Virus record (IMG/VR): IMGVR_UViG_3300007541_000260
Span: 1 to 22,008 of that record
From: a virus
Direction: 5' to 3' (one strand)
Length of the DNA stretch: 22,008 bases
Translations under genes and position numbers: made by a program
The notes under the pieces: generated by a model
Told to the model about the DNA's origin: nothing
The model's input: the letters and a program-made list of their open reading frames with translations, nothing else
Database searches by the model: none
Shown: positions 1,707-18,748 of the stretch, one piece after another
How the letters are laid out: each line of letters begins with the position of its first letter
How positions within the stretch are numbered: the stretch's first letter is position 1

Positions 1707-1935
1707 GTTAATAAAAGTAGCTGAAGAATCTATTGTCACTGGTGGTGAAGATGATGTGTCTGCTGATAAATTAAAAAACGCCGCAGCAACAAAAAAGCTT
1801 GCGATATTTGATGCTTTTGAAATACTTCAAAGAATAGAAGAAGAGGATCAAAAAATAAACGGCGAAGTAAAAGAAACTGAGGTAGTTAAAGAAGAAAGCT
1901 TTATGGGTTTTGCTGAAAAAAAATCTAAAAAATAA
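1648..1935 (+). CDS. Small helical protein upstream of terL; candidate small terminase subunit
   Basis: The protein is 95 aa. Residues 1-75 are predicted helical by eye, with an N-terminal helix (SIIQAGHVAVLELIKVAEES) and a conserved-looking block around ADKLKNAAATKKLAIFDAFE, then an acidic and Lys-rich tail ending in EKKSKK. It lies directly before terL, its TAA sharing one base with the terL ATG. A helical protein in this place fits a small terminase subunit or terL-linked packaging factor, but no helix-turn-helix was clearly recognised, so the function is positional inference. The start overlaps the previous gene by 59 nt; no other ATG, GTG or TTG lies between 1651 and 1706 in this frame, so the overlap seems forced if the first helix is kept. 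Confidence 0.6.
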   Translation: MNTKETRKSIIQAGHVAVLELIKVAEESIVTGGEDDVSADKLKNAAATKKLAIFDAFEILQRIEEEDQKINGEVKETEVVKEESFMGFAEKKSKK

Positions 1936-4169
1936 TGAGTTACCAACAGAACTTATATAGTATCATTGAACCAATTCCAATTAACAGGTTAACTAGATTA
2001 AATAGATCTAAAAGTTGGAAATATGGTTATAATGAAGATGACGATATTGTTGTTATAAGTAAGACCGGTCAAATAGGTGAGATATACGAAATATCTGGTT
2101 TAAAAATAGCCTTGCCAAAAGTGCCAGGTGATGATAAGATATATAAAAGATCTAATAAAACCGAGGATCAATATTGGGAAAGAATAGATACCATAAAAGA
2201 TCTAGATAAAATAAAAACAATATTTGACTGGAAAGATTATCCTTTAGATTTTAAAAATAAATACATAGGATACATCGAAAAAGAATTTGAGTATAGAGAA
2301 GAAGGTTTTTGGTTTAAAAACAACGGCATAAACACATACATAACTGGCTCACACTATATGTACTTGCAGTGGAGTAAGATAGACGTTGGTTATGCTGATT
2401 TCAGAGAAGCAAACAGGCTGTTTTTTATTTTTTGGGAAGCATGCAAAGCAGATGAAAGATGTTATGGTATGTGTTATTTGAAAAATAGACGATCTGGTTT
2501 TTCTTTTATGGCTTCTTCTGAGACAGTAAACTTAGCCACAATATCAAGTGATAAAAGATTTGGTATACTTTCTAAAACTGGACCAGATGCAAAAAAACTA
2601 TTTACCGACAAGGTTGTACCTATGTCAACAAATTATCCTTTCTTCTTCAAGCCTATACAAGATGGTATGGATAGACCAAAAACTGAAATTTCGTATAGAG
2701 TACCTGCATCTAAATTAACTAGAAAGAAAATAGAGTCTAAGAGTGAAGATCAAGATTTAGAAGGTCTTGATACTAGTATAGACTGGAGAAATACAGCTGA
2801 TAACTCTTATGATGGTGAAAAATTATATCTATTAGTACACGATGAATCTGGTAAATGGGAAAGACCAGAAAACATATTAAACAATTGGCGTGTAACAAAA
2901 ACATGTTTAAGACTTGGTAGCAGGATTGTTGGTAAGTGTATGATGGGTTCTACTTCAAACGCGTTAGACAAAGGAGGGCAAAATTTTAAAGATTTGTTTA
3001 ATGACTCTAACACTAACAAAAGGAATAACAACGGTCAGACTAAAAGTGGTTTATACAATCTGTTTATACCAATGGAGTGGAACTACGAAGGTTTTATTGA
3101 TATATATGGTATGCCAGTATTTGAAACACCAGATAAACCAGCAAAAGCAGCTGATGGGAGTTTAATAAAAATTGGTGTTATTGAGTATTGGGAAAATGAA
3201 GCAAATGCTTTAAAACATGATCAAGATGCTTTAAATGAATTTTATAGACAATTTCCTAGAACAGAAGAACATGCTTTTAGAGATGAGACTAAACAAAGTT
3301 TATTTAACCTTTCTAGGATATACGATCAAATAGACTTTAATGGAGAAGTTTATAAAAGTAATTTAATAACTAGAGGTAATTTTCAATGGGAAAACGGCGT
3401 TATAGATACAAGGGTTATATTTATACCAGACTCTAACGGTAGGTTTTATTTATCTTGGATCCCACATAAAGATTTACAAAACCAAGTGATTATCAAGAAT
3501 GGAATTAAATATCCAGGTAATGAACATGTTGGTGCTTTTGGATGTGACCCTTATGATATATCTGGAACCGTAGATGGAAAAGGATCAAAAGGTTCACTAC
3601 ATGGTTTAACAAAGTTTTCAATGGAAAACGCGCCTCCAAATTCGTTTTTCTTAGAATATATAGCTAGACCACAGACGGCTGAAATATTTTTTGAAGATGT
3701 TTTAATGGCGACGGTTTTTTATGGTATGCCATTGTTAGCTGAAAATAACAGACCAAGACTACTGTATCATTTTAAAAATAGAGGATACAGAGGTTTCTCA
3801 ATGAATAGGCCTGACAAACCTTGGAACAAGCTATCTGCTACAGAAAAAGAAATTGGTGGTATACCTAACTCAAGCGATGACATAAAGCAAGCTCACGCAG
3901 CTGCTATAGAAACATACATAGATAAACATGTTGGCTTAGTGTCTGAAGGCAACTATGGTTCTATGTATTTTAACAATACTTTAAATGATTGGGCTAAATT
4001 TAATATAAACAATAGAACAAAGCATGATGCTTCTATTAGTTCTGGTTTAGCTATAATGGCTTGTAATAGAAATCTTTACAAAGTGAATCAAAAAAGAGAT
4101 GTAAAGGTATTAGATTTTGGTTTTAAGAAATACGACAATAGTGGAACTGTTTCAAAGTTGAAACAATAA
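1935..4169 (+). CDS. terL: Terminase large subunit (DNA packaging ATPase and nuclease)
   Basis: This is the motor that pumps phage DNA into the procapsid and cuts it to length. Visible motifs in order are: a Walker A-like loop at residues 183-190 (KNRRSGFS), lacking the standard lysine; Walker B LYLLVHDE at 297-304 with D303 and the catalytic E304; and a coupling motif MMGSTSN at 336-342. A RNase H-type nuclease half follows, with the likely catalytic Asp in GCDPYD (D538), an acidic residue in LLAENN (E603) and the last Asp in TKHDASISSGLA (D698). The protein has 744 aa, longer than most TerL, with about 180 residues before the ATPase core, as in crAss-like phages. It is followed 17 nt later by the portal gene, the usual partner. 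The start is translationally coupled to the previous gene. Confidence 0.92.
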   Translation: MSYQQNLYSIIEPIPINRLTRLNRSKSWKYGYNEDDDIVVISKTGQIGEIYEISGLKIALPKVPGDDKIYKRSNKTEDQYWERIDTIKDLDKIKTIFDWKDYPLDFKNKYIGYIEKEFEYREEGFWFKNNGINTYITGSHYMYLQWSKIDVGYADFREANRLFFIFWEACKADERCYGMCYLKNRRSGFSFMASSETVNLATISSDKRFGILSKTGPDAKKLFTDKVVPMSTNYPFFFKPIQDGMDRPKTEISYRVPASKLTRKKIESKSEDQDLEGLDTSIDWRNTADNSYDGEKLYLLVHDESGKWERPENILNNWRVTKTCLRLGSRIVGKCMMGSTSNALDKGGQNFKDLFNDSNTNKRNNNGQTKSGLYNLFIPMEWNYEGFIDIYGMPVFETPDKPAKAADGSLIKIGVIEYWENEANALKHDQDALNEFYRQFPRTEEHAFRDETKQSLFNLSRIYDQIDFNGEVYKSNLITRGNFQWENGVIDTRVIFIPDSNGRFYLSWIPHKDLQNQVIIKNGIKYPGNEHVGAFGCDPYDISGTVDGKGSKGSLHGLTKFSMENAPPNSFFLEYIARPQTAEIFFEDVLMATVFYGMPLLAENNRPRLLYHFKNRGYRGFSMNRPDKPWNKLSATEKEIGGIPNSSDDIKQAHAAAIETYIDKHVGLVSEGNYGSMYFNNTLNDWAKFNINNRTKHDASISSGLAIMACNRNLYKVNQKRDVKVLDFGFKKYDNSGTVSKLKQ

Positions 4170-4186: not shown

Positions 4187-6586
4187 ATGGAGATGACACC
4201 TTCTAAAGGTATTTTTCCAAGTCACGCAGTGCTTGATGAAGAAAAATCTAGTTTTAGTTATGGAATGCAAGTTGCAAAAGCCATAGAATCAGAGTGGTTT
4301 AGAAAAGACAACGGTAGCGACAAATATCAGTCAGCTAAAGAAAACTACCATAGACTTAGGTTGTATGCAAGAGCTGAGCAAAGCGTTCAAAAATATAAAG
4401 ACGAACTATCTGTTAACGATGATCTGTCTTATTTAAACTTAGACTGGAAACCAGTTCCAATAATACCAAAGTTTGTAGACATAGTTGTTAACGGTATATC
4501 TGAAAGAGAATATGAATTAAAATGCTATAGTCAGGATCCAGATTCTATAAAAGATAAAACAGACTATGTCAATAGCCTTTTAAGGGACATGAATAATAAA
4601 CAGTTGTTTCAAAAAATAAATGCTACAACTGGTATAAACATGTTTAACAACGATCCATCTTCTATACCTCAAAACGTTGAAGAACTATCTGTTAAGATGC
4701 AGCTTGAATATAAGCCTTCTATAGAGATAGCACAAGAAGAAGCATTAAATAATGTTTTTGATCTTAATAAGTTTCCACTAGTAAAGAAAAGATGTGATTA
4801 CGATTTAGTTGTAATAGGAATAGCGTGTACTAGAAGTAAGTTCAACCCATCTGACGGTATTAAAATTGATTATGTTGATCCAGCAGATATTGTTTACTCG
4901 TACAGCGATTCTCCTTATTTTGATGATCTATATTATGTTGGTGAGGTTAGAAGAATGACTATACCTGAATTAAAAAAGTTTTTCCCTAGATTAACCAACG
5001 AAGAGGTTAAAGAAATAGAAAACATGACCTATGATAGTTCTGTTTATAGATCTCAAAAATATACAGCTACTCAACAAGATAACTTTGTTGACGTTTTATT
5101 CTTTGAATACAAAACGTACAATAATCAAGTTTATAAGATAAAGCAGACTTCTACTGGCGCTCAGAAAGCAATACAAAAAACTGATGAGTTTAATCCACCC
5201 AAAGATGATAGATCACAGTTTGAAAAAGTAAATAGATCGATAGAGGTTCTTTATGAAGGTGCTAAAATAATTGGTTTAGAAAAACTACTTGATTGGAGGT
5301 TAAGTGAAAACATGACTAGACCTAAGTCTGATATTACTAAAGTAAACATGAGTTATGCTATAGTAGCGCCAAGACTATATCAAGGTAGACCAGAATCTCT
5401 AGTTTCTAGAATGGTTACGTTTGCCGACATGATTCAATTGACACACTTAAAAATACAACAAGTAATGTCAAGATTGGTTCCAGATGGTGTTTATCTTGAT
5501 GCTGATGGACTAGTAGAGATAGATTTAGGTAATGGAACAAATTACAATCCTCAGGAAGCATTAAACATGTATTTCCAAACTGGTAGTGTTATTGGTAGAT
5601 CAATGACAATGGATGGCGAGATCAACCAAGGCGCTTTACCAATAAAAGAACTACAGACTGGATCTGGTGGATCTAAAATACAAAGTTTAATAACTATGTA
5701 TAATCATTATTTACAAATGATTAGAGACACAACTGGTTTAAACGAAGCTAGAGACGGTAGTATGCCTGATTCTAACTCGTTGGTTGGTTTACAAAAATTA
5801 GCAGCAGCTAATTCTAATACAGCTACTAGACATATTTTAGAAGGTAGTTTGTATTTAACTCTAAGAACAGCAGAGATCACGTCTCTTAGATTATCTGACG
5901 CTATAGAGTACTCTAGTATAAGAAACTCATTTATAAACTCTCTAGGTAAGTTTAATGTTGCCACGTTAGATGAATTACATAGTCTTCATTTACATGACTT
6001 TGGTATATATATTAATTTAGCTCCAGATGAAGAAGAAAAACAAAGGTTAGAAAATAATATACAAATAGCTTTAAATAGAGATCAAATTACTCTAGACGAT
6101 GTTATTGATATTAGAGAAGTTAAAAACTTAAAATTAGCTAATCAATTACTAAAAATACGTAGAAGAAAAAAGTTTGAACAAGATAGACAAGTTCAAATTC
6201 AAAACATACAAGTTCAAACAGAGTCAAACTCTAAAGCAGCTCAAATTAGTGCTGAGTTAGAAGTGCAGAAAGAACAAGTGCTAGCTAACACTAAGTCACA
6301 ATTAATACAGCTGCAAAACCAAGGTGATATTCAAAAATTAGAAAGAGAAGCTCAGTTGAAAAAAGATTTGATGCTTTTTGAGTTTCAATTAAACAGTCAA
6401 CTTAAACAGATGGATTTACAAGTGATTAAAGGAAAAGAAGAGTACAAGGAAGATAGAAAAGACAAACGCACTAAAATACAAGCAACACAACAAAGCGAGC
6501 TTATAGATCAAAGAAAAAACAATAAACCACCAAAAAACTTTGAATCAATTAACAATGATATGTTAACGGGTGGTTTTAGTATATAA
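4187..6586 (+). CDS. Portal protein
   Basis: This is the dodecameric ring at one capsid vertex through which DNA enters and leaves. It has 799 aa, which is long and in the range of crAss-like and large podovirus portals. Visible features are an N-terminal helical region (AKAIESEWF, 31-38), a clip/stem-like section with VDPADIVYSYSDSPYFDDLYYVGE at about 230-253, and the block LVSRMVTFADMIQLTHLKIQQVM (405-427), a long helix consistent with the stem. A second conserved-looking block is MIRDTTGLNEARDGSMPDSNSLVGLQKLA (511-539), typical of the portal crown/wing junction. The last 150 residues (about 650-770) are Gln/Lys/Glu-rich and probably form a helical barrel. It is placed between terL and a scaffold-like gene. 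A second ATG two codons downstream (4193) is an alternative start. Confidence 0.87.
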   Translation: MEMTPSKGIFPSHAVLDEEKSSFSYGMQVAKAIESEWFRKDNGSDKYQSAKENYHRLRLYARAEQSVQKYKDELSVNDDLSYLNLDWKPVPIIPKFVDIVVNGISEREYELKCYSQDPDSIKDKTDYVNSLLRDMNNKQLFQKINATTGINMFNNDPSSIPQNVEELSVKMQLEYKPSIEIAQEEALNNVFDLNKFPLVKKRCDYDLVVIGIACTRSKFNPSDGIKIDYVDPADIVYSYSDSPYFDDLYYVGEVRRMTIPELKKFFPRLTNEEVKEIENMTYDSSVYRSQKYTATQQDNFVDVLFFEYKTYNNQVYKIKQTSTGAQKAIQKTDEFNPPKDDRSQFEKVNRSIEVLYEGAKIIGLEKLLDWRLSENMTRPKSDITKVNMSYAIVAPRLYQGRPESLVSRMVTFADMIQLTHLKIQQVMSRLVPDGVYLDADGLVEIDLGNGTNYNPQEALNMYFQTGSVIGRSMTMDGEINQGALPIKELQTGSGGSKIQSLITMYNHYLQMIRDTTGLNEARDGSMPDSNSLVGLQKLAAANSNTATRHILEGSLYLTLRTAEITSLRLSDAIEYSSIRNSFINSLGKFNVATLDELHSLHLHDFGIYINLAPDEEEKQRLENNIQIALNRDQITLDDVIDIREVKNLKLANQLLKIRRRKKFEQDRQVQIQNIQVQTESNSKAAQISAELEVQKEQVLANTKSQLIQLQNQGDIQKLEREAQLKKDLMLFEFQLNSQLKQMDLQVIKGKEEYKEDRKDKRTKIQATQQSELIDQRKNNKPPKNFESINNDMLTGGFSI

Positions 6587-7784: not shown

Positions 7785-9242
7785 ATGGCAACAAAAATTG
7801 TAGATTTATCTACCCCTGCTGAGATTCTTAGTCCAGCAACGTCTAAAGTTACTCTAGCTAGTAACTATGTTAATTTCACTGCATCTGGTTTTGAGCAATG
7901 GGCTCAACAATATTTACCAGAGCTTTACGAAGCAGAAGTTGAACGATATGGTAATCGATCATTATCATCTTTCTTGCGTCTTGTTGGTGCTGAAATGCCT
8001 ATGAGCTCTGATCAAGTTATTTGGTCAGAACAAGGTCGTTTGCACATTAAGCTTGATGCTACTGTGAACGATGGTAGTGCTAATACTTTTACCCTAACTG
8101 CTGGTCACTCTCTACGAGTTGGTCAAACAGTTGCTATTAGTTTCACTGATGCCAGCTCTCCTGCTGCTTATACTGGAACTAAGGTTGGTAAAGGTTATGT
8201 TAGCGTCGTTGGTGCTACATCTGCTACTATCCTTCCTTACGAGTATGCTTCTTGGGATGCATTTGTAACCGTTGGTATCACACCAGCTATTACGGCTGAT
8301 GGAGACAGTGTTACTATGTTCGTTTACGGTTCTGAATTTGGAAAAGGAACAAACGGTATGGCTGAATCAATTCAACCAGAGTTTGAATCTTTTTCTAATA
8401 AACCAATTATCATTAAAGATAAGTTCGAAGTATCTGGTTCTGACGCCGCGCAAATTGGTTGGATTGAGGTTTCAGGTGAAGCTGGTCAATCTGGTTACAT
8501 GTGGTATATGAAGGCAGAAGGTGATACTAGGACTCGTTTCGAAGATTATCTTGAAATGTCTGTTGTTGAAGCAGTTAAGAAAGATACAGGTGCCGCTGCT
8601 ACAGTTGATGGTACAGAAGGTTTGTTTGCAGCTATTGAAAGCAGAGGTATTGTATCTGAAGGCTTTGGTGCTGCAAATGCTAATAGTCCAACTGCTGCTG
8701 AGTTCCAAGCATCTTTAGATAACATCTGTATCGAGCTTGATAAGCAAGGTGCTATTGAAGAAAACATGCTTTTCTTGAACCGCGCTGCTTCTCTTGCTAT
8801 TGATACTGGTCTTGCTTTGCTAAATGGTGGTTATGATAAGGGTACTTCTTACGGTGTTTTCCAAAACAGCGAAGATATGGCTCTTAACCTAGGCTTCTCT
8901 GGTTTCCGTAGAGGTTCTTACGATTTCTACAAAACAGATTGGAAATACTTGAATGATCAAACCACTCGAGGAGCGATCGGCGGTATTGAGGGTGTTTTAG
9001 TTCCAGCTGGTACAACTTCTGTGTACGATCAAATGATGGGTAAAAATATCCGTCGTCCATTCTTACACGTTCGTTACCGAGCTTCTGAAATGGATAACCG
9101 TAGAATGAAGTCTTGGGTTGTTGGATCTGTTGGAGCAAGCAATAGCGACCTAGATGCTATGGAAGTGCATTACTTGTCAGAGCGATGCCTTGTTACTCAA
9201 GCAGCTAACAACTTCATCTTGTTCAACGACACAGATGCATAG
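7785..9242 (+). CDS. Major capsid protein (HK97 fold)
   Basis: The main shell protein has 485 aa. It sits in the standard slot after portal and scaffold genes. Features include a conserved N-terminal segment (WAQQYLPELYEAEVERYGNR, 39-58), SDQVIWSEQGRLHI (75-88), a beta-rich stretch at about 90-185 likely to be an inserted surface domain, an E-loop-like segment with FSNKPIIIKDKFEVSGSD (203-220), the helical block TRTRFEDYLEMSVVEAV (248-264) and a C-terminal P-domain with RRPFLHVRYRASEMDNRRMK. These match remembered crAss-like and marine Bacteroidetes phage capsid proteins. Codon use differs sharply from neighbours: Ile is always ATT/ATC (no ATA) and Arg is 15 CGN against 4 AGR, as expected for the most abundant product. 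It is followed by a terminator-like hairpin. Confidence 0.85.
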   Translation: MATKIVDLSTPAEILSPATSKVTLASNYVNFTASGFEQWAQQYLPELYEAEVERYGNRSLSSFLRLVGAEMPMSSDQVIWSEQGRLHIKLDATVNDGSANTFTLTAGHSLRVGQTVAISFTDASSPAAYTGTKVGKGYVSVVGATSATILPYEYASWDAFVTVGITPAITADGDSVTMFVYGSEFGKGTNGMAESIQPEFESFSNKPIIIKDKFEVSGSDAAQIGWIEVSGEAGQSGYMWYMKAEGDTRTRFEDYLEMSVVEAVKKDTGAAATVDGTEGLFAAIESRGIVSEGFGAANANSPTAAEFQASLDNICIELDKQGAIEENMLFLNRAASLAIDTGLALLNGGYDKGTSYGVFQNSEDMALNLGFSGFRRGSYDFYKTDWKYLNDQTTRGAIGGIEGVLVPAGTTSVYDQMMGKNIRRPFLHVRYRASEMDNRRMKSWVVGSVGASNSDLDAMEVHYLSERCLVTQAANNFILFNDTDA

Positions 9243-10773: not shown

Positions 10774-11826
10774 ATGGCAGTAAATGTAAACTCTGTTTAT
10801 ACTAAAGTTTTAGCTATATTAAACAAAGAACAAAGAGGTATAATGACGCCGTCTGAGTTCAATAGAATAGCACCAATAGTAGAATTAAGTATTGTAGATA
10901 AAACTTTTTATGAATTAAATAAAGCTTTAAACTACAAAGCAAGAGGAGCAGTAAGCCAAGGTGTGGCTGACACTACTAGTAAAATACAAGAAAAAATTGA
11001 CTCTTTGTTCAATGAATCAAGTATTACGTTTACTTCTGGAGCAGCTACTTTACCTGAAAACGTTTACAAAATCATAAATGTATTAAGCAGCGATAGGTTA
11101 ACAACATACGAAGAAATAAAAAGACACGAAATAAGTTATTTACTATCTTCTCCTTTAACAGCACCAACATCAAAGTTTCCCTGCTATTATCAAGGTCCTG
11201 CTGGTTCAGATGTATATACATTACCAACACCTCAAAACGGTAGTTCAGTATTAGTAAATTACGTTAAGAAACCAAGTGGAGCGAGATGGGGTTATACTAA
11301 AAACTCACAATATGGTAATGATATATATGATCAAAACACGTTTGTAGCTAATGGATTAGTTTTGAATAACGATTTAACCAGTTCAATTTTACCAACATCG
11401 ACATTTGGTGATGATGCCGACGCAGGAACAGTAACCGGTGTAATAGGTACAACGCCTGGATTTACAACAAGTGGTTCTGGTACTGGTGCATCTATCAATG
11501 TTACAACTACTGGATCCGCTGGTTCAGCCGTGGTTAGCTCTATAGTTGTTTTAAGTAGTGGAGATAATTTTCAACCTGGTGACACTATAACAATAGCTGC
11601 TAGTGCTTTACCAGGTAGTGGTACTGGTAATGTTGTGGTACAAGTTTCTAACTCTAGTTTATACAGATACTCCACACAAGGTTCAACTGATTTTGAGTTA
11701 CACTTATCGGAAGAACCAACGTTAATAATGGGTATACTTGCTTACGCTGGTGTTGTAATAAGAGATCCAAATATAACTACATTAGCGTCAAACATAATTC
11801 AGTCTAACGAAGTAATAAAACAATAA
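10774..11826 (+). CDS. Probable neck/ring (tail structural) protein with inserted beta domain
   Basis: The 350-aa protein starts MAVNVNSVYTKVLAILNKEQRG, followed by MTPSEFNRIAPIVELSI: a helical N-terminal unit I associate with a conserved structural protein next to the connector in crAss-like and marine phages. Residues 86-175 are beta-rich and the C-terminal 50 residues (TDFELHLSEEPTLIMGILAYAGVVIRD) return to that core. Between them, about 176-293, lies a Gly/Ser/Thr-rich stretch with a repeat-like pattern (GTGASINVTT, SIVVLSSGDNFQPGDTITI) typical of beta modules in marine phage fibres. I read this as an insertion into a ring protein. It is followed by TAA TAA ATG, with the connector gene in the same frame. 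The role as ring protein is inferred from position. Confidence 0.62.
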   Translation: MAVNVNSVYTKVLAILNKEQRGIMTPSEFNRIAPIVELSIVDKTFYELNKALNYKARGAVSQGVADTTSKIQEKIDSLFNESSITFTSGAATLPENVYKIINVLSSDRLTTYEEIKRHEISYLLSSPLTAPTSKFPCYYQGPAGSDVYTLPTPQNGSSVLVNYVKKPSGARWGYTKNSQYGNDIYDQNTFVANGLVLNNDLTSSILPTSTFGDDADAGTVTGVIGTTPGFTTSGSGTGASINVTTTGSAGSAVVSSIVVLSSGDNFQPGDTITIAASALPGSGTGNVVVQVSNSSLYRYSTQGSTDFELHLSEEPTLIMGILAYAGVVIRDPNITTLASNIIQSNEVIKQ

Positions 11827-11829
11827 TAA

Positions 11830-12927
11830 ATGGGTTTGTTAAAAGAAACAGCATCTCAGTATTACACTGGTATACAAGGATTTTTCGTTACATCAACTGG
11901 TCCTCAAACTATAACACTTACGTTTGATCCAGTACCAGAGGATAAATCTGATATTAGAGTATATGTTGATGGTGTAGAATTAAACACAGCTTTCTACTCT
12001 TATTCTAAGCCAACTGTATCTATTTCTTCTAGTGTAGCATCTGGTTCTAATATAGAGGTAAAAAGTATATTTCATAAAACTGGTAAATATCAATTTATAT
12101 CTATAGAAGATATAGTTAACAATTTTATGATAGCATACGTTGGCAATGGTAAGATTATTGATGATGTGAAAAGATCTGATGTGCTTTTTCATTGCAAAAG
12201 AGGTATTCAAGAGTTTTCTTATGATATATCTAGAGTTGAGAAAATTCAAGAAATAGAATTAGGTCCAACTTTAACAATGCCAATGCCTCAAGATTATGTA
12301 AACTATGTTAGATTATCTTGGGTCGATGCAAATGGGTTTGAGCATATCATATATCCATTTAGACATACCTCTAAACCTAATATACCTATACTACAAGCAA
12401 ATGATTACTCTTATTTATTTGACAACGAGGGTGATCTTCTTTTGGGTGATTCTATAACTGATACTAGATTCAGAGAGTCAGATTCTAATAACTTAGATGA
12501 TAATAGAACAAACGCTTATTTTTTAGGTCAAAACTACGAAACTGAAAGACAAGCTTTTCTTGGTGGTAGATATGGTTTAAACCCTGAAACAGCTTTCGAT
12601 ACAGGTGTTTTTTTGATCAACGAAGCTGAAGGAAAAATATCATTCAGTAGTAATTTATCTGGTAAAATCATTACACTAAAGTATATTTCAGATGGACTTG
12701 GTAGTGATGATGAAATGAAAGTTCATAAATTTGCTGAAGAAGCAATTTACAAGCATATAGCTTTAAATGTAATTTCATCAAAACTAAATGCACCTGAATA
12801 CTTAGTAAACAGATTTAAAAAAGAAAAAAGAGCAGCTGTACATAATGCAAAAATAAGATTATACAATCTTAAACAGCTAGAAATGACTCAAATAATGAGA
12901 AATAAGTCTAAACACATTAAACATTAA
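11830..12927 (+). CDS. Head-to-tail connector / ring protein (P22 gp4-like)
   Basis: The protein has 365 aa. The core begins near residue 92 with SIEDIVNNFMIAYVGNGKII, then VKRSDVLFHCKRGIQEFSYD (113-132), PMPQDYVNYVRLSWVD (151-166), NPETAFDTGVFLINEAEGKISFSS (251-274) and a helical end KFAEEAIYKHIALNVISSK to KIRLYNLKQLEMTQIMRNKSK. These blocks match my memory of the tail accessory/connector family of crAss-like and related podoviruses, which docks beneath the portal. Residues 1-90 are an extra beta domain (ITLTFDPVPEDKSDIRVYVDG) like N-terminal anchor domains of phage fibres. Its ATG follows two tandem TAA codons, and its own tandem TAA codons overlap the next start (TAATAATG). Confidence 0.7.
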   Translation: MGLLKETASQYYTGIQGFFVTSTGPQTITLTFDPVPEDKSDIRVYVDGVELNTAFYSYSKPTVSISSSVASGSNIEVKSIFHKTGKYQFISIEDIVNNFMIAYVGNGKIIDDVKRSDVLFHCKRGIQEFSYDISRVEKIQEIELGPTLTMPMPQDYVNYVRLSWVDANGFEHIIYPFRHTSKPNIPILQANDYSYLFDNEGDLLLGDSITDTRFRESDSNNLDDNRTNAYFLGQNYETERQAFLGGRYGLNPETAFDTGVFLINEAEGKISFSSNLSGKIITLKYISDGLGSDDEMKVHKFAEEAIYKHIALNVISSKLNAPEYLVNRFKKEKRAAVHNAKIRLYNLKQLEMTQIMRNKSKHIKH

Positions 12928-12929
12928 TA

Positions 12930-13259
12930 ATGGCTGAGATAAAAAATAATTTTTTAGGAGCTAAATTAAACAAAGATTTAGATAAAAGATTAGTACCTAA
13001 AAACGAGTATATTGATGCACAAAATGTTTCAATACAAGAGGCTGTTAGCAATGATGCTGGTTCAGCTACACCTTTGTTAGGTAGTATACTTAATTATAGC
13101 GAATCGCTTGGTTTTAATGAAAACACTGAAGTAATTGGATACTACGTTGATGAGCAAAAAAAAAGAGTTTATTGGTTTGTAACAGATGGTGAGCAATACT
13201 CTAAAGGTGGTACAATTACGAAACCAGATACACCTGTAATATCACTTCCTGTATCATAA
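12930..13259 (+). CDS. N-terminal part of tail stabilisation ('muzzle', P22 gp10-like) protein, encoded separately
   Basis: The 109-aa protein starts AEIKNNFLGAKLNKDLDKRLVPKNEYIDAQNVSIQ, a classic opening of tail-stabilisation (P22 gp10-like) and related needle/muzzle proteins: 'G.LNKDLDERLVP.NEYIDA.N'. It continues with TEVIGYYVDEQKKRVYWFVTDG, the next blade-like strand pair of that family. It then ends early after a short Thr/Pro-rich tail (TKPDTPVISLPVS). The following gene seems to continue the same family. Both the stop at 13257 and another stop in the following gene's frame at 13261 lie between them, so a single-base frameshift cannot join the two. A truncated or separately folded module is the reading. 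The leader overlaps the previous gene's tandem stop. Confidence 0.72.
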   Translation: MAEIKNNFLGAKLNKDLDKRLVPKNEYIDAQNVSIQEAVSNDAGSATPLLGSILNYSESLGFNENTEVIGYYVDEQKKRVYWFVTDGEQYSKGGTITKPDTPVISLPVS

Positions 13260-13269
13260 ATAAAATTAT

Positions 13270-16200
13270 ATGGCAGTACACAAGATAATTGCGCAAGATT
13301 TATCAGATGAAACCTCTGAACCAATAGTTATCGTAGAAGGTGATTTTTTAAACTTTTCAAAGAATCATTTGATAACAGGTGTTAATACTATAGAGGATTT
13401 ATTGTTTTGGGTTGATAACTATAACCAGCCAAGAAAAATAAACACTGATGTAGCTATTCAAGATCCCACTTATTATGATAATGAAGATAAAATATCTGTA
13501 GCTAAAGTAGCTCCATATAAAGCTCCTTTTATATATGAGCATGAAAACCTGTCTTCAGTAAGTATTGCTAGAACAATAGGTAGGAAAGATGACGGTGGTT
13601 TAGGAGCCGATGTTCAATCTGATTACTTAAAAGATAAATTTGTAAGGTTTTCATATAGATACAAGTTCGAAGATAACGAGTATTCTTTAATGGCTCCGTT
13701 TAGTCAAATAGTTTTTGAACCGTTAAACAATGGCGCTATAGCTAGCGATAATGGAAATACAAACGCTGATCCTAATAGGTATGGTATTGAAAATATCATT
13801 GATACCACTAGGGTTGAAATAATGCAAAACATTATCAATAGGGTTAAACTTAGAATACCATTACCAGATGAAAACGATAGATTAACAGCACAATCAAATA
13901 CGTTATCAACTGACTTTTTAACACCATCAAGTACAATAAGTATAAATGGTGCGAGTATACAACCAGGAACTTACATCGTAAAAGGTGGTGATTCAAGTGC
14001 TAAATCAGAAGGCATAACGCAATTCCACACAGATACTTTAGTAACAACGCCAGCTACTGGTCTTCAATTAAGAAGCGGTAAAATATCTGGTTCTTCTGGT
14101 GATAAAATAAATTTTGTACCAATGTGGCAAAACAAATTTGGTATAAAGTCAATAGAGATATTAATAAAAGAATCAGATGATCAAGCTGTAAGAGTTGTAG
14201 GTGAAATACCAGTTACTGATACAAGAGATTTTACTAGCATCGTAGATGTTTATCCATTTAAAACAAACAGTGGTGCATTAACATTACCTTTATGGAGATA
14301 TTGCTGTGTTTTTGATTTTAAGGCAGAAAGACCGTATAAGTCATTAACTGAGCAAGAAATGACTAGAATAAGTGACGATGTACCAAGAATAGCTCAAGCT
14401 CAAGAAGTTGTATCAAATAGAGTTGTTTATGGTAATTACTTAAAAGATTATGAGTACCCATTAGATGGAAGCGGTAATAAAGGTATAAACTATTATGTTT
14501 CTGAAAAAATAAAAGGAGATTTAGAGTATGATACAATAAACGCTGAAGAAGAAGATTGGGGTAACTTACAGCACAATGAACATGCTCATAGATATTCTTC
14601 TGTAAAACAAAGAAGAACATATCAAGTTGGTATAGTTTTATCAGATAGATGGGGTAGAAAGTCTCCTGTTATCCTTTCATCAATAAAAAACAAAGGTAGT
14701 ATATATGACGCCTCTGATACTATAACAATAGAGAACGATTCTGGTTTAACATCAGAAGCATCTCCAGTAAACTACTCAGTTGGTGGTCCTAGCGGTGGTT
14801 TTAGTTGGAGTGCTAATGTTGACGATATCATAGGAAGATGTTTATCTATAACTTTTAATGAGCAGAGAATATTACCAGCGTCACAGTGTTACCATCCAAC
14901 AGATAATATATTTGGTTGGTATTCTTATAAGATAGTTGTAAAACAAAGTCAACAAGAATACAACAACGTATATGTCTCGCATCCATTAACATTAATAGCT
15001 GATGATCCAGCTAGTCCAAGCTACATATCTTTATTTTCAGATAATATAAATAAAGTTCCTAGAAGTATACTAGAACAAGATGCTACTAAAAACTATGTAT
15101 CTGGCTCTGATATATTGTTATTCCCAAAAGTAGTGCAAACAGCTACAGATAATAGCACGGCATCTAGAATGTCTACATTACCTATGTTAATAGATGTTGT
15201 TTCAATAGGTACACAATCTGATTTTGACTATAACAACACTGGAGCTTTAGATAATTTTATATACAAACAAGAAAAAGGTCCTCTTTTAGGTGAAATATTA
15301 AACCTAACGGTTTATCAAGGTGTTGGTCACGATACAATAGCACCTATAGTGGATGTTAAGCAAGGATTAACAGTATTTGAAACTGAACCATTTGATTCTA
15401 AGTTAGATATTTACTACGAAACATCTACAACTGGTTTAATATCAGATTTGAACTATATACTAGCGGCATTACCTCCTTTGTCTATACCTATAGACGTGCA
15501 ATGGGATAATGTTAGTGGTAGAGTACATGAGGCCGCTGAGTCATATACTGGTGCTCTAGCTGACCCAGTTGAAGCAACAAAAGGTAATCCATCTAATACT
15601 TTAGAGTATGAGTTATTACATTTATATGATTATAATGGTGGACAAAGGGTTGACTACAAGAATGCCATAACATTAAATAGCTCAACAGGTGTTGTTACTA
15701 TAAAATCAGATGGTCCTGGTTTTTGTTTTAGAAACAATGGTTACGATGAGTACGAAATGGTCGTTAAGGTTTCAGAATATACACCAGCCGGTGAGTTTAC
15801 TGGGTCGTCAATAGAACCACTAATATTAAAAATAACAAACTCAATACCCACTATATCTCTTTATAGAGATTTATATCCAGCGTCTGGTGCTGAAACCGGC
15901 TCAAGCTCAACTGGTTTAATATCTTTTTTTGCTACTGATAATGAACCAGTTATTATACTTAATTCTAACAATGTAAAATATAACTACAACGGTTTATACT
16001 CTAACGGAGGTAGAAGAACTAGTGAAAAATATCAATATGTTGAGTTTGAGGTTACGTTCCCAGATGCACCACCAGAGGCTAGAGAATTTTTAGAAGACTC
16101 GTTTAAAATACAAGAAATAAATGGTTATTTTAATCTTGTAGCTACCGATGTTTGGGCTAAGACTACTAAAGAACAAAACGACGAGTATGGCGTAAATAAA

Positions 16201-16866
16201 AGGTATGTTTTAGAAGATTTAATTGACTTAGAAAGAACGGCTTTAATAAAAATCATAGATAATGGTTCTTTAGACGCTTCCGTTTATTTGACTATAAAAG
16301 AAAGAAATACACCCGTTAAAATGCCTAGTATTTATAACTGGCCTTTTAGAAGTTCATTCATAACATCAGACAATAAGACACCAACAACGGTTAATCAAGT
16401 TAATGATTATTACAACAAAACCACAAATCCATCTCCAAACGTTACTGATTGGAATTATCCTGGAAGCTTGAGTATAAACTCTTCTCCATTCGCTAATTAT
16501 GAAACAGGTTGGTTAGGTAGAGGATCTAGAGTTGAACAAGCTGACCCAAGTAATCCAAAGGTTGGTAATATACTTTACTCTGATATTAATGGAAATAAAC
16601 TTTGGACAGAAGATCCTTTACATTGGAATTGGATAGACGGTACAGGTGAAATAAATCAAGTGATTATATATAAGTACACTAATACTAAAAATAGCAGCGG
16701 TGAAAACGTAGCTGAGTATAGGTATATGGTTATTGATAAAGTTACATCTGAAGTTACAGCCGTTGGAGTTGAAACAGTTTTCGATGGACAATCAGCTAGC
16801 CAAGAATTAGGTTATAGATTAGCATTACAAACGTTTCCACCTTTAATTGATCCAGGTCAAATTTAA
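13270..16866 (+). CDS. Tail stabilisation ('muzzle', P22 gp10-like) protein, central part, with cadherin-like insertion
   Basis: The 1198-aa protein begins with VIVEGDFLNFSKNHLITGVN and DLLFWVDNYNQPRKIN (residues 19-58), which in related proteins come directly after the segment held by the preceding 109-aa gene. FVRFSYRYKFEDNEYSLMAPFSQ (124-146) and QRRTYQVGIVLSDRWGRKSPV (447-467) are further family-like blade segments, and KLDIYYETSTTGLI (711-724) is another. Residues about 741-860 look like a cadherin-type repeat (LEYELLHLYD; LNSSTGVVTI; YEMVVKVSEY; LILKITN), with a second possible module after it. It lacks the typical final section starting 'YFN.....N', which is found in the next gene. It probably forms the main tail barrel outside the connector. 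The start follows an ataaaattat leader. Confidence 0.7.
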   Translation: MAVHKIIAQDLSDETSEPIVIVEGDFLNFSKNHLITGVNTIEDLLFWVDNYNQPRKINTDVAIQDPTYYDNEDKISVAKVAPYKAPFIYEHENLSSVSIARTIGRKDDGGLGADVQSDYLKDKFVRFSYRYKFEDNEYSLMAPFSQIVFEPLNNGAIASDNGNTNADPNRYGIENIIDTTRVEIMQNIINRVKLRIPLPDENDRLTAQSNTLSTDFLTPSSTISINGASIQPGTYIVKGGDSSAKSEGITQFHTDTLVTTPATGLQLRSGKISGSSGDKINFVPMWQNKFGIKSIEILIKESDDQAVRVVGEIPVTDTRDFTSIVDVYPFKTNSGALTLPLWRYCCVFDFKAERPYKSLTEQEMTRISDDVPRIAQAQEVVSNRVVYGNYLKDYEYPLDGSGNKGINYYVSEKIKGDLEYDTINAEEEDWGNLQHNEHAHRYSSVKQRRTYQVGIVLSDRWGRKSPVILSSIKNKGSIYDASDTITIENDSGLTSEASPVNYSVGGPSGGFSWSANVDDIIGRCLSITFNEQRILPASQCYHPTDNIFGWYSYKIVVKQSQQEYNNVYVSHPLTLIADDPASPSYISLFSDNINKVPRSILEQDATKNYVSGSDILLFPKVVQTATDNSTASRMSTLPMLIDVVSIGTQSDFDYNNTGALDNFIYKQEKGPLLGEILNLTVYQGVGHDTIAPIVDVKQGLTVFETEPFDSKLDIYYETSTTGLISDLNYILAALPPLSIPIDVQWDNVSGRVHEAAESYTGALADPVEATKGNPSNTLEYELLHLYDYNGGQRVDYKNAITLNSSTGVVTIKSDGPGFCFRNNGYDEYEMVVKVSEYTPAGEFTGSSIEPLILKITNSIPTISLYRDLYPASGAETGSSSTGLISFFATDNEPVIILNSNNVKYNYNGLYSNGGRRTSEKYQYVEFEVTFPDAPPEAREFLEDSFKIQEINGYFNLVATDVWAKTTKEQNDEYGVNKRYVLEDLIDLERTALIKIIDNGSLDASVYLTIKERNTPVKMPSIYNWPFRSSFITSDNKTPTTVNQVNDYYNKTTNPSPNVTDWNYPGSLSINSSPFANYETGWLGRGSRVEQADPSNPKVGNILYSDINGNKLWTEDPLHWNWIDGTGEINQVIIYKYTNTKNSSGENVAEYRYMVIDKVTSEVTAVGVETVFDGQSASQELGYRLALQTFPPLIDPGQI

Positions 16867-16877
16867 AAACAAAAAAA

Positions 16878-18266
16878 ATGCCTTACGAATTAGAAATATC
16901 ATACTTCAACACATTTATTCTATCCAACTCTAAAACAGAGGTTGATGGTGAAGGAGACCTAACTCAACCAGACGTAATAGATGGCTCTTGGTATGTTGAA
17001 GAGTCTAGAATAAAAGGTAGATACAATGGTACTAACGTTGACTATGGCGTTGCTGCTCATGCAACTGACACTGATTATGAGTCAAGATTAGAATTTAATT
17101 CATGGATATTCTCTGGTATATATAATCCAAGAACTGGAGTAAACAGAACAAACGAATTTCCAACTGGTGCAGACATCAGGGGTTTTCTTGATCCTAAGTA
17201 TGGATCTATACAAAAATTATTTGCAGAGGACAATGATCTTTATATTTTTCAAGAATCTAAAATCCTCAGAGCATTAATAGATAAAGACGCATTATATACA
17301 GCAGCTGGTGGTCAACTTATTACATCATCCAATAAAGTAATAGGCCCAGTCACACCATATCAAGCAGCAAATGGTATATCTAAAAGACCAGAAACACATG
17401 CTTATAATAATGGAAGACAGTATTTTCTTGATGAAGATAGAGGATCTGTTTTAAGGTTAAGTAGAGATGGAATAACAAATATATCTGAGTATGGCGTTGA
17501 GTCTTTTATTAGAGATAACGTTAAGAAAGCTAATTTCTTTAGAGGTATGTTTGATGAAAGAAGATCAGAGTATGTACTTTGTATAGGTAATAAAGATGAG
17601 GCAAATAATAGTATACAAAATGGTTTAGTTAAAAACGATTTAGGCCAACTATCAAAAGCAAACTACATAACGCTTGGTTTCTATGAACCAGGTAATGGTT
17701 GGAGTTCTTTTTACACTTACAAACCTTACTTTGGTTTTAGTTTTCAAAATGAGTTTTACACATACAGTAAATTTGATTTACACAAACATTATAGTAAATT
17801 AGTTCCACAGTGTTCTTTCCATGGTAATGAACAAGATCCTGCTTACATAACATTAGTAATGAATGATAGTGTTTCTGTTGTTAAAAATTTCTTAACAGTA
17901 GGATATGAAGGAGAGCCTGGTTGGGAGGTTTATAATTTAAATTGCGAAAAATACAGAATAGAAGGATATGACTCTGTTTCTGAATCTGGTTATCCAATAC
18001 CTAAAAACGGAACAACGTTTATTAATGATTTTGGAGAAGAGGTGCAGTATGGTTTTAACAAGAAAGAAAATGAATATTTTGCTGAAATAAGAAGAAGTAG
18101 GAATGATGAGTTCAATGACTTTAGTTACTTTGAAACAAGTGGTTTAAAAGGTCACTACTTAGAGTTAACAATAATGAATTGGCCAAATAACGAACAAATA
18201 TATTCTTCAGATTATCCTGGATCTATATTTAGTATTTCTAGTGAAATTGTATTATCTTCGCAATAA
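16878..18266 (+). CDS. C-terminal part of tail stabilisation ('muzzle', P22 gp10-like) protein, encoded separately
   Basis: The 462-aa protein starts PYELEISYFNTFILSNSKTE and then reads FSGIYNPRTGVNRTNEF (99-115), DPKYGSIQKLFAEDNDLYIFQESKI (125-149), GPVTPYQAANGISKRPETHA (176-195) and DEDRGSVLRLSRDGITNIS (207-225). These blocks occur, in this order, in the C-terminal beta-propeller half of muzzle/tail-stabilisation proteins of crAss-like and other marine phages as I remember them, normally within one chain. Here they form their own gene with an A-rich leader (aaaaacaaaaaaa) after a TAA. There is no slippery heptamer at the junction, so separate translation is likely. It probably assembles with the two preceding proteins into the short tail. 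Beta-rich throughout; no enzymatic motif was noticed. Confidence 0.7.
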   Translation: MPYELEISYFNTFILSNSKTEVDGEGDLTQPDVIDGSWYVEESRIKGRYNGTNVDYGVAAHATDTDYESRLEFNSWIFSGIYNPRTGVNRTNEFPTGADIRGFLDPKYGSIQKLFAEDNDLYIFQESKILRALIDKDALYTAAGGQLITSSNKVIGPVTPYQAANGISKRPETHAYNNGRQYFLDEDRGSVLRLSRDGITNISEYGVESFIRDNVKKANFFRGMFDERRSEYVLCIGNKDEANNSIQNGLVKNDLGQLSKANYITLGFYEPGNGWSSFYTYKPYFGFSFQNEFYTYSKFDLHKHYSKLVPQCSFHGNEQDPAYITLVMNDSVSVVKNFLTVGYEGEPGWEVYNLNCEKYRIEGYDSVSESGYPIPKNGTTFINDFGEEVQYGFNKKENEYFAEIRRSRNDEFNDFSYFETSGLKGHYLELTIMNWPNNEQIYSSDYPGSIFSISSEIVLSSQ

Positions 18267-18277
18267 ACACATTGACA

Positions 18278-18748
18278 ATGGATGAAATAGAGTTAATACC
18301 AAACAAAGCTGAATTTAGAGTTAAAATAGTAGAGTTTGAAAATTCATGTAAAGAAATAAACGGTTATATTGAAGGAGAAGAGAAAGACAAGTTCAACCCA
18401 TTAAAACATACGTTTGTTAACGGTTTATACGTTAGAGAAATATTAATGCCAGCTGGACAATTAATAATAACCAAGATACATAAAGTAGAGCATCCATTTT
18501 TTATAGTTAAAGGTAAAGTATCTATATTGTCTGAAAATGGAATACAACACATAGAAGCGCCTTATAGCGGTATAACCAAACCAGGAACGAAAAGAATTAT
18601 GTATACGCATGAAGACACTATACTAATAACTGTACATGCGACAGATAAAAAAACACCAGAAGAGGTCGAAGAAGATGTAATTGCTAAAAACTTCGAAGAC
18701 CCTGTGATATCATTAGAAGAAATTAATTTATTAAAGCAAACACAATGA
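18278..18748 (+). CDS. Small cupin-fold protein in the tail block
   Basis: The ATG at 18278 is preferred; a TTG two codons upstream (18272) is also in frame. The protein has 156 aa, with a single-domain cupin-like core at about 48-120: GLYVREILMPAGQLIITKIH, KVEHPFFIVKGKVSILSENG and APYSGITKPGTKRIMYTHED. H68 and H72 with H111 could bind a metal, though the canonical glutamate of cupin motif 1 is not obvious. Such small cupins occur in many phage structural regions without a known reaction, and may be structural or sugar-binding. A charged helical tail (PEEVEEDVIAKNFED) follows. Its TGA overlaps the next ATG (ATGA), so the two are translationally coupled. Confidence 0.7.
   Translation: MDEIELIPNKAEFRVKIVEFENSCKEINGYIEGEEKDKFNPLKHTFVNGLYVREILMPAGQLIITKIHKVEHPFFIVKGKVSILSENGIQHIEAPYSGITKPGTKRIMYTHEDTILITVHATDKKTPEEVEEDVIAKNFEDPVISLEEINLLKQTQ

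Follow-up and report, generated by a model that had tools for sequence, protein, structure and literature searches.

What has become of the muzzle protein in a crAss-like phage whose tail genes seem to hold it in three pieces? The question is raised by the IMG/VR record IMGVR_UViG_3300007541_000260, a stretch of 22,008 bases (hereafter the window) that carries the head-tail cluster of a crAss-like podovirus. Three consecutive open reading frames (ORFs) of 109, 1198 and 462 amino acids (aa), named here m1, m2 and m3, lie exactly where an earlier reading of the bare sequence (the original prediction) had placed them, with proper stops and A-rich leaders. Our analyses make it very probable that these are three genes for the muzzle, the nozzle or gatekeeper of the tail tip, that they derive from two successive fissions, and that their products most likely co-assemble non-covalently into the usual six-fold muzzle. 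The original prediction had spoken of the tail barrel; the structure concerned is instead the muzzle at the tip, because the barrel is made by ring proteins, which build it above the muzzle in phi-crAss001 (PMC10172136).

Sequence comparison supports the claim that a single muzzle-type protein is represented, from its N- to its C-terminus, by m1, m2 and m3 in succession. The three products match the single-chain profile phrog_14478 (1474 positions) in order (Table 1), a colinearity far beyond chance, and the same order is held inside gp97 (1324 aa) of Cellulophaga phage phi38:1. While m3 reaches the Pfam family crAss_MUZ_C (PF25729) with 36.2 bits against a cut-off of 27, neither m1 nor m2 of the window scores above the cut-off of crAss_MUZ (PF25731), for which the m1 of a related locus, L258, obtains 19.6 bits (cut-off 27) and the joined relatives L063 and L110 obtain 50-69 bits. 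Ten residues of m1 are invariant across 14 sequences (M1, K5, F8, N14, D18, R20, Y27, N32, G44 and G70). As in known members of the family, the muzzle genes directly follow a ring-protein gene in the head-tail cluster; the family's pattern of one polypeptide per muzzle subunit does not hold here, where three genes are found, and kept in three lineages.

The first junction (m1/m2) is the rarer of the two. In the window, a TAA at 13261-13263 closes the frame of m2 two codons ahead of its ATG, so that, as originally predicted, no single indel or frameshift can rejoin the two genes. The context of this ATG is typical of real starts: among 181 inferred starts its score ranks at the 32nd percentile, and only 4% of the window's 449 ATGs that are not starts score as high. 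The same three-gene layout, which the prediction had proposed to seek in related contigs, was found in L257 and in L258-L261, the latter being four IMG/VR records that we count as one lineage because identity across the length common to them is 99.86% or higher. L257 and L258-L261 share 72-77% DNA identity where alignable, and the window proteins are about 50% (m1) and 48-50% (m2) identical to theirs. In the window, L257 and L258-L261, respectively, m1 measures 109, 109 and 110 aa and m2 1198, 1187 and 1197 aa; m2 starts at the same protein position in all three (MAVHKII, MAVNKII and MAANKII, with MA..KII..QDL kept), and an in-frame stop lies two codons upstream of this start in both the window and L258. 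A search of IMG/VR for the exact junction-1 DNA returned no second copy. The core of m1 shows a ratio of nonsynonymous to synonymous substitution rates (dN/dS) of about 0.04-0.23, indicative of purifying selection, although this value is rough with dS near saturation; between L257 and L258, m1, m2 and m3 are all under purifying selection, again with dS near saturation.

Comparable breaks do occur in the same collections, such as the one-base frameshift of L106 relative to L107 or the multiple frameshifts of L329, and junction 1 might likewise have arisen as an assembly or sequencing artefact, or through a mutation that recently inactivated the gene in a single population. Yet the same junction recurs in the diverged and independent contigs L257 and L258-L261, where the spacer DNA is different and the start conserved; in addition, m1 is under purifying selection and two separate changes would be needed. 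The independent lineages refute the broken-gene reading, to which we give virtually no credence. The N and M regions are both present in 234 non-redundant loci and joined in 229 of them; the other five are the window, L257, L258-L261, L054 and L329. The last two were rejected as further splits of the N gene: L329 has several frameshifts and its ring gene is also shortened, whereas L054 (IMGVR 3300009428_000032, 13413-15585) has one in-frame TGA in the ring-protein gene and one in the muzzle N-region, and is probably recoded with TGA standing for tryptophan, on the thin basis of two codons. Junction 1 is rare but real, a younger split confined to a subclade of three lineages.

The short gap at junction 1 (10-11 nucleotides, nt) between colinear parts may call to mind a ribosome that joins the genes by programmed frameshift, bypassing or stop readthrough, or proteins that are spliced, so that one chain would result, and recoding does occur in phages, as L054 probably illustrates. 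A conserved programmed frameshift at this place is excluded because the spacers differ in sequence among the three lineages (10, 10 and 11 nt) and so do the frame offsets (+1, +1 and +2); the combination of a conserved offset with a recoding signal that marks a programmed frameshift or bypass gene was not found, and an intron or intein is impossible in a gap of 10 nt. Moreover, the stops are TAA with more stops in the downstream frame, the downstream genes have typical start contexts and begin with MA or MP, and the gaps at junction 2 (m2/m3) span 0-45 nt among relatives and occur in all frames, with an upstream gene that ends in its own extra domain. The chance that a single chain is restored in any of these ways appears very slim.

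The occurrence of both junctions was followed in loci gathered by IMG/VR searches with the capsid, ring, m2 and N-domain sequences and by one search of bacterial and archaeal genomes, classed with profiles for five muzzle regions, and placed on a quick maximum likelihood tree of ring and muzzle core regions whose only support values are from the Shimodaira-Hasegawa-like approximate likelihood ratio test (SH-aLRT). L177/L258 were found only by the N-terminal-domain profile; a single-protein search with m3 gave no hits, and a search with the m2 start returned joined forms only. The 143 non-redundant complete loci comprise 46 single-chain, 80 two-gene and three three-gene loci, and 14 with the C-terminal domain as its own gene. 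All but one of the two-gene loci (79) are cut at junction 2, the exception being Maribacter phage Panino, which is cut elsewhere. Together with the window, the junction-2 loci form one clade of 92 (support 100), made of 79 two-gene, three three-gene and 10 single-chain loci, these last in three separate places. The three-gene group is itself one clade (SH-aLRT 100), with the two-gene loci L319 and L063 as its sister. Most simply, junction 2 arose by a single split and was undone by at least three re-fusions, repeated splitting being the alternative. The original prediction took the two junctions together as one division; they are separate events, junction 2 being an old trait of the clade tied to an extension of m2 and junction 1 being younger. 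Its statement that relatives keep the protein in a single chain holds for cultured isolates and for other clades; within the clade of the window, junction 2 is already present in most members.

The tie between junction 2 and the extension is strict. In single-chain members of the clade, a short linker connects the motif FETxPxxSxxDIYYE with the YFN strand. In the genes cut at junction 2, 234-886 residues follow this motif to the stop (82/82), whereas 19-163 residues separate it from the next domain in genes without the cut (58/58), with no overlap between the two groups. It follows from this dichotomy of length that the break goes together with a newly free C-terminus bearing added domains, and the re-fused lineages are without the extension. 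The "flexible module exchange" that had been proposed has indirect support only: extensions differ widely from one another in both length and content, and every re-fused gene has lost its own. The Pfam family Cadherin (PF00028) is found in six of 28 m2 homologues, and other adhesion-type domains in single cases; m2 of the window has no Pfam hit, Cadherin included, and its likeness is one of fold, its model matching tandem cadherin ectodomains and the SraP adhesin in Foldseek with expectation values (E) of 1e-8 to 1e-6. The extension resembles cadherin/immunoglobulin (Ig) adhesion domains, and from this model one may suppose that the free C-terminus of m2 contacts the host surface. One could also argue for neutral fission at tolerant loops, by which the splits would be real and the chains co-assembling, no function would be gained and the extension would merely hitch-hike; junction 1 indeed lies in an already variable loop with no domain added, and relatives tolerate many insertions. 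The inseparability of split and extension in 82/82 genes and the loss of the extension upon re-fusion stand against it and suggest that the free m2 end matters, so that we regard neutral fission as rather unlikely.

Where the breaks fall in the structure can be approached through gp44 of phi-crAss001, which forms a hexamer with a ring-joining domain and a seven-bladed propeller; IG1 (163-292) lies between blades 2 and 3, blade 3 has IG2 (318-1021) as an insertion, and IG2 in turn holds the inserted crass domain (PMC10172136). The N-terminal region of joined homologues aligns to gp44 1-159 (profile alignment, probability 97.5), which puts junction 1 at about 87-90, between two strands and ahead of IG1 at 163; in the relatives, the site is a variable loop between the strands RVYWFVTD and HKIIAQDL. 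On this alignment, blade 1 would be shared, with strands one and two coming from m1 and the final two from m2. Profile alignment failed to place junction 2 exactly on gp44, and consequently it is firmly placed only before the propeller part equivalent to about gp44 1054. The structure-database search that had been proposed gave matches for both larger products. A model of m3, weak since built from an alignment of 13 split relatives with a mean predicted local distance difference test score (pLDDT) of 59, finds as best PDB matches in Foldseek the phi-crAss001 muzzle (7qol_P and, at E 4e-13, 7qok_A) and then the P22-type nozzles 8eap, 9jg6 and 7eeq; the m2 model (mean pLDDT 58) matches crAss-like "stabilization proteins" among the viral models of BFVD. 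It is by this fold search, through m3 and with models of low confidence, that the muzzle fold of 7QOK/7QOL is recovered; sequence-profile searches of the PDB with the muzzle alignments gave no match. The small size of m1 and the partly adhesin-like look conferred on m2 by its extension could be read as a sign that the pieces have parted, m2 and/or m3 remaining in the muzzle and m1 (or the extended m2) working elsewhere, in a role such as assembly factor or fibre-like accessory. We consider this improbable: the conserved N-terminal residues are still present in m1, as are the strands needed to complete blade 1, and nothing elsewhere in the muzzle replaces them.

The most consistent scenario remains two successive fissions followed by co-assembly. 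On the phylogeny, the ancestor of the large clade gained a stop and a new start where the crass/IG2 part ends and the remaining propeller begins, and its upstream half acquired a long C-terminal extension; later, as tree and gene structure show, the three-lineage subclade gained a second stop and start in the loop between strands two and three of blade 1, freeing an N-terminal chain of 109 aa. The chains would be translated as adjacent cistrons by stop and restart from A-rich starts. It is tempting to hypothesize that m1 docks into blade 1 of m2 by beta-strand addition, that m3 supplies the later blades and the MUZ_C domain and so closes the propeller, and that the break at junction 2 frees the end of the upstream chain, so that its cadherin/Ig-like domains would stand exposed on the tail tip, where they probably serve to contact the host surface. 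The gene structure, its conservation, the order of events on the tree and the coupling to the extension are observed. Several points weigh against this scenario: co-assembly of the three chains is deduced, the three-gene members being known from their genes alone, in just three lineages, all metagenomic; confidence in the m2 and m3 fold models is low (mean pLDDT 58-59); the assignment of blades depends on the sequence alignment to gp44; and the adhesion role stems from a fold resemblance, when cadherin/Ig folds also act as plain spacers.

Table 1. Muzzle genes, their junctions and neighbouring genes in the window (positions are those of the window; E, expectation value)
Feature	Position	Strand	Description	Evidence
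Terminase	1935-4169			
Portal	4187-6586			
Major capsid protein	7785-9242			
Ring/adaptor-like tail protein	10774-11826	+	350 aa; upstream neighbour of the muzzle genes	phrog_14543 E 4.5e-24; Pfam SU10_adaptor E 1.5e-4, under that family's cut-off
Second ring-type structural protein	11830-12927	+	365 aa; immediately before the muzzle genes	phrog_13977 E 1.2e-45
m1, muzzle N-terminal gene	12930-13259	+	109 aa; N-terminal segment and putative first two strands of propeller blade 1	phrog_14478 positions 1-81, E 1.5e-13; profile alignment to gp44; separate gene also in L257, L258-L261
Junction 1	13257-13272	+	m1 stop TAA 13257-13259, 10-nt A/T-rich spacer, ATG of m2	
m2, whole ORF	13270-16866	+	1198 aa	
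m2 core	13270-15450	+	residues 1-727; predicted rest of blade 1, blade 2, IG and crass-type domains, ending at strand motif FETEPFDSKLDIYYET	phrog_14478, best stretch positions 110-224, E 9.6e-26; crAss_MUZ Pfam in 10/28 homologues; Foldseek to crAss-like "stabilization proteins"
m2 C-terminal extension	15451-16866	+	about 471 aa; predicted cadherin/Ig-like; unsplit relatives without it	length dichotomy; Pfam Cadherin in 6/28 homologues; Foldseek
Junction 2	16864-16880	+	m2 stop TAA 16864-16866, 11-nt A-rich spacer, ATG of m3	
m3, muzzle C-terminal gene	16878-18266	+	462 aa; predicted remaining propeller and MUZ_C domain	crAss_MUZ_C E 8.1e-9; phrog_14478 positions 920-1162, E 3.9e-34; Foldseek 7qol_P/7qok_A E 2e-13, P22 gp10
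Tail-fibre-like gene	18272-18748	+	158 aa; downstream of the muzzle, outside it	phrog_12032 E 2e-30

The muzzle family is already known, and the split form is new: we found no description of a divided muzzle in the open-access papers that we searched. With the Crassvirales muzzle (phi-crAss001 gp44; 7QOK/7QOL; PF25731, PF25729; phrog_14478) the window shares colinear domains, the preceding ring-protein gene, the fold match of m3 and MUZ_C in m3, but gp44 is one chain of 1371 aa, as opposed to three genes of which the second bears an additional extension of 471 aa. Homologous muzzles in the same neighbourhood are likewise single chains in Cellulophaga phi38:1 (gp97), Flavobacterium elemo (gp22, 1493 aa) and Tenacibaculum Gundel (gp060, 1386 aa), and a ring-type protein gene stands in the same place before the muzzle in phi38:1, elemo, Panino, Gundel and the IMG/VR loci. 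Closest in layout are the two-gene muzzles of IMG/VR (e.g., L063, L319 and L013), with the identical junction 2 and extension, except that the N-terminal part is still joined to the middle. Two- and three-gene relatives likely infect Flavobacteriia. The P22 gp10 and T7 gp12 nozzles have the propeller nozzle fold, as reflected in the P22-type matches to m3, but are single, shorter chains without crass domain or extension.

Other muzzles are divided at different points. In MW202828 (L005) and similar loci (14 in all), the muzzle also lies on two genes but the MUZ_C domain alone is separate, as a gene of about 250 aa in L005, L024, L151, L153, L157, L160, L168, L171 and L289; some of these loci have one or two extra genes inserted between the muzzle genes, of a recurring "YYIDxxxFSxATxVW" type or, in one case, annotated as a glycosidase. 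The break of Panino (L003, 4418-8331) is inside the propeller part: its muzzle of 946 + 320 aa is cut in the m3-homologous region, with a gap of 110 nt, and the two genes are annotated as structural and hypothetical. Some single-chain muzzles (L133, L053, L055, L065, L145 and L232) have 590-1050 extra residues past MUZ_C, at the natural C-terminus and not at junction 2. L106 was counted as a single chain; its contig is 99.3% identical to that of L107, and the one-base difference (11520-11546) that frameshifts its muzzle gene may be an error or a strain variant. In L169 (4040-4933), an in-frame TAA in the P region cuts the muzzle gene and homology goes on in the same frame, by error or polymorphism. 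The muzzle contigs L324, L325, L326 and L327 sit in bins named Ilumatobacteraceae, Maricaulis, Aliivibrio and Woesearchaeota, probably binning errors in view of the family's known hosts.

Of all parts of the crAss-like virion, the muzzle, which gates the ejection of DNA and protein, is the least understood. Automated annotation misses split muzzles because their parts are labelled as unrelated "structural" or "hypothetical" proteins. Natural splits reveal the cut sites that the protein tolerates and offer ready-made constructs for expressing its parts. The two-gene form, at 79 of the 92 sampled loci of the clade, is more widespread and perhaps more informative, the three-gene form being its extreme. 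A host-contact role has been proposed for the crass domain of gp44, and insertions at that site vary (PMC10172136). Split muzzles suggest exchangeable host-contact modules on the tail tip. Tentatively, and with somewhat less than even confidence, we would propose that fission at one fixed point, by leaving each subunit with a free C-terminus, has turned the muzzle into a display platform on which exchangeable cadherin/Ig-like receptor-contact modules evolve, by which host recognition may be wired directly to the opening of the gate, and that in one subclade, through a further cut inside a propeller blade, this gate may have become a three-chain machine.

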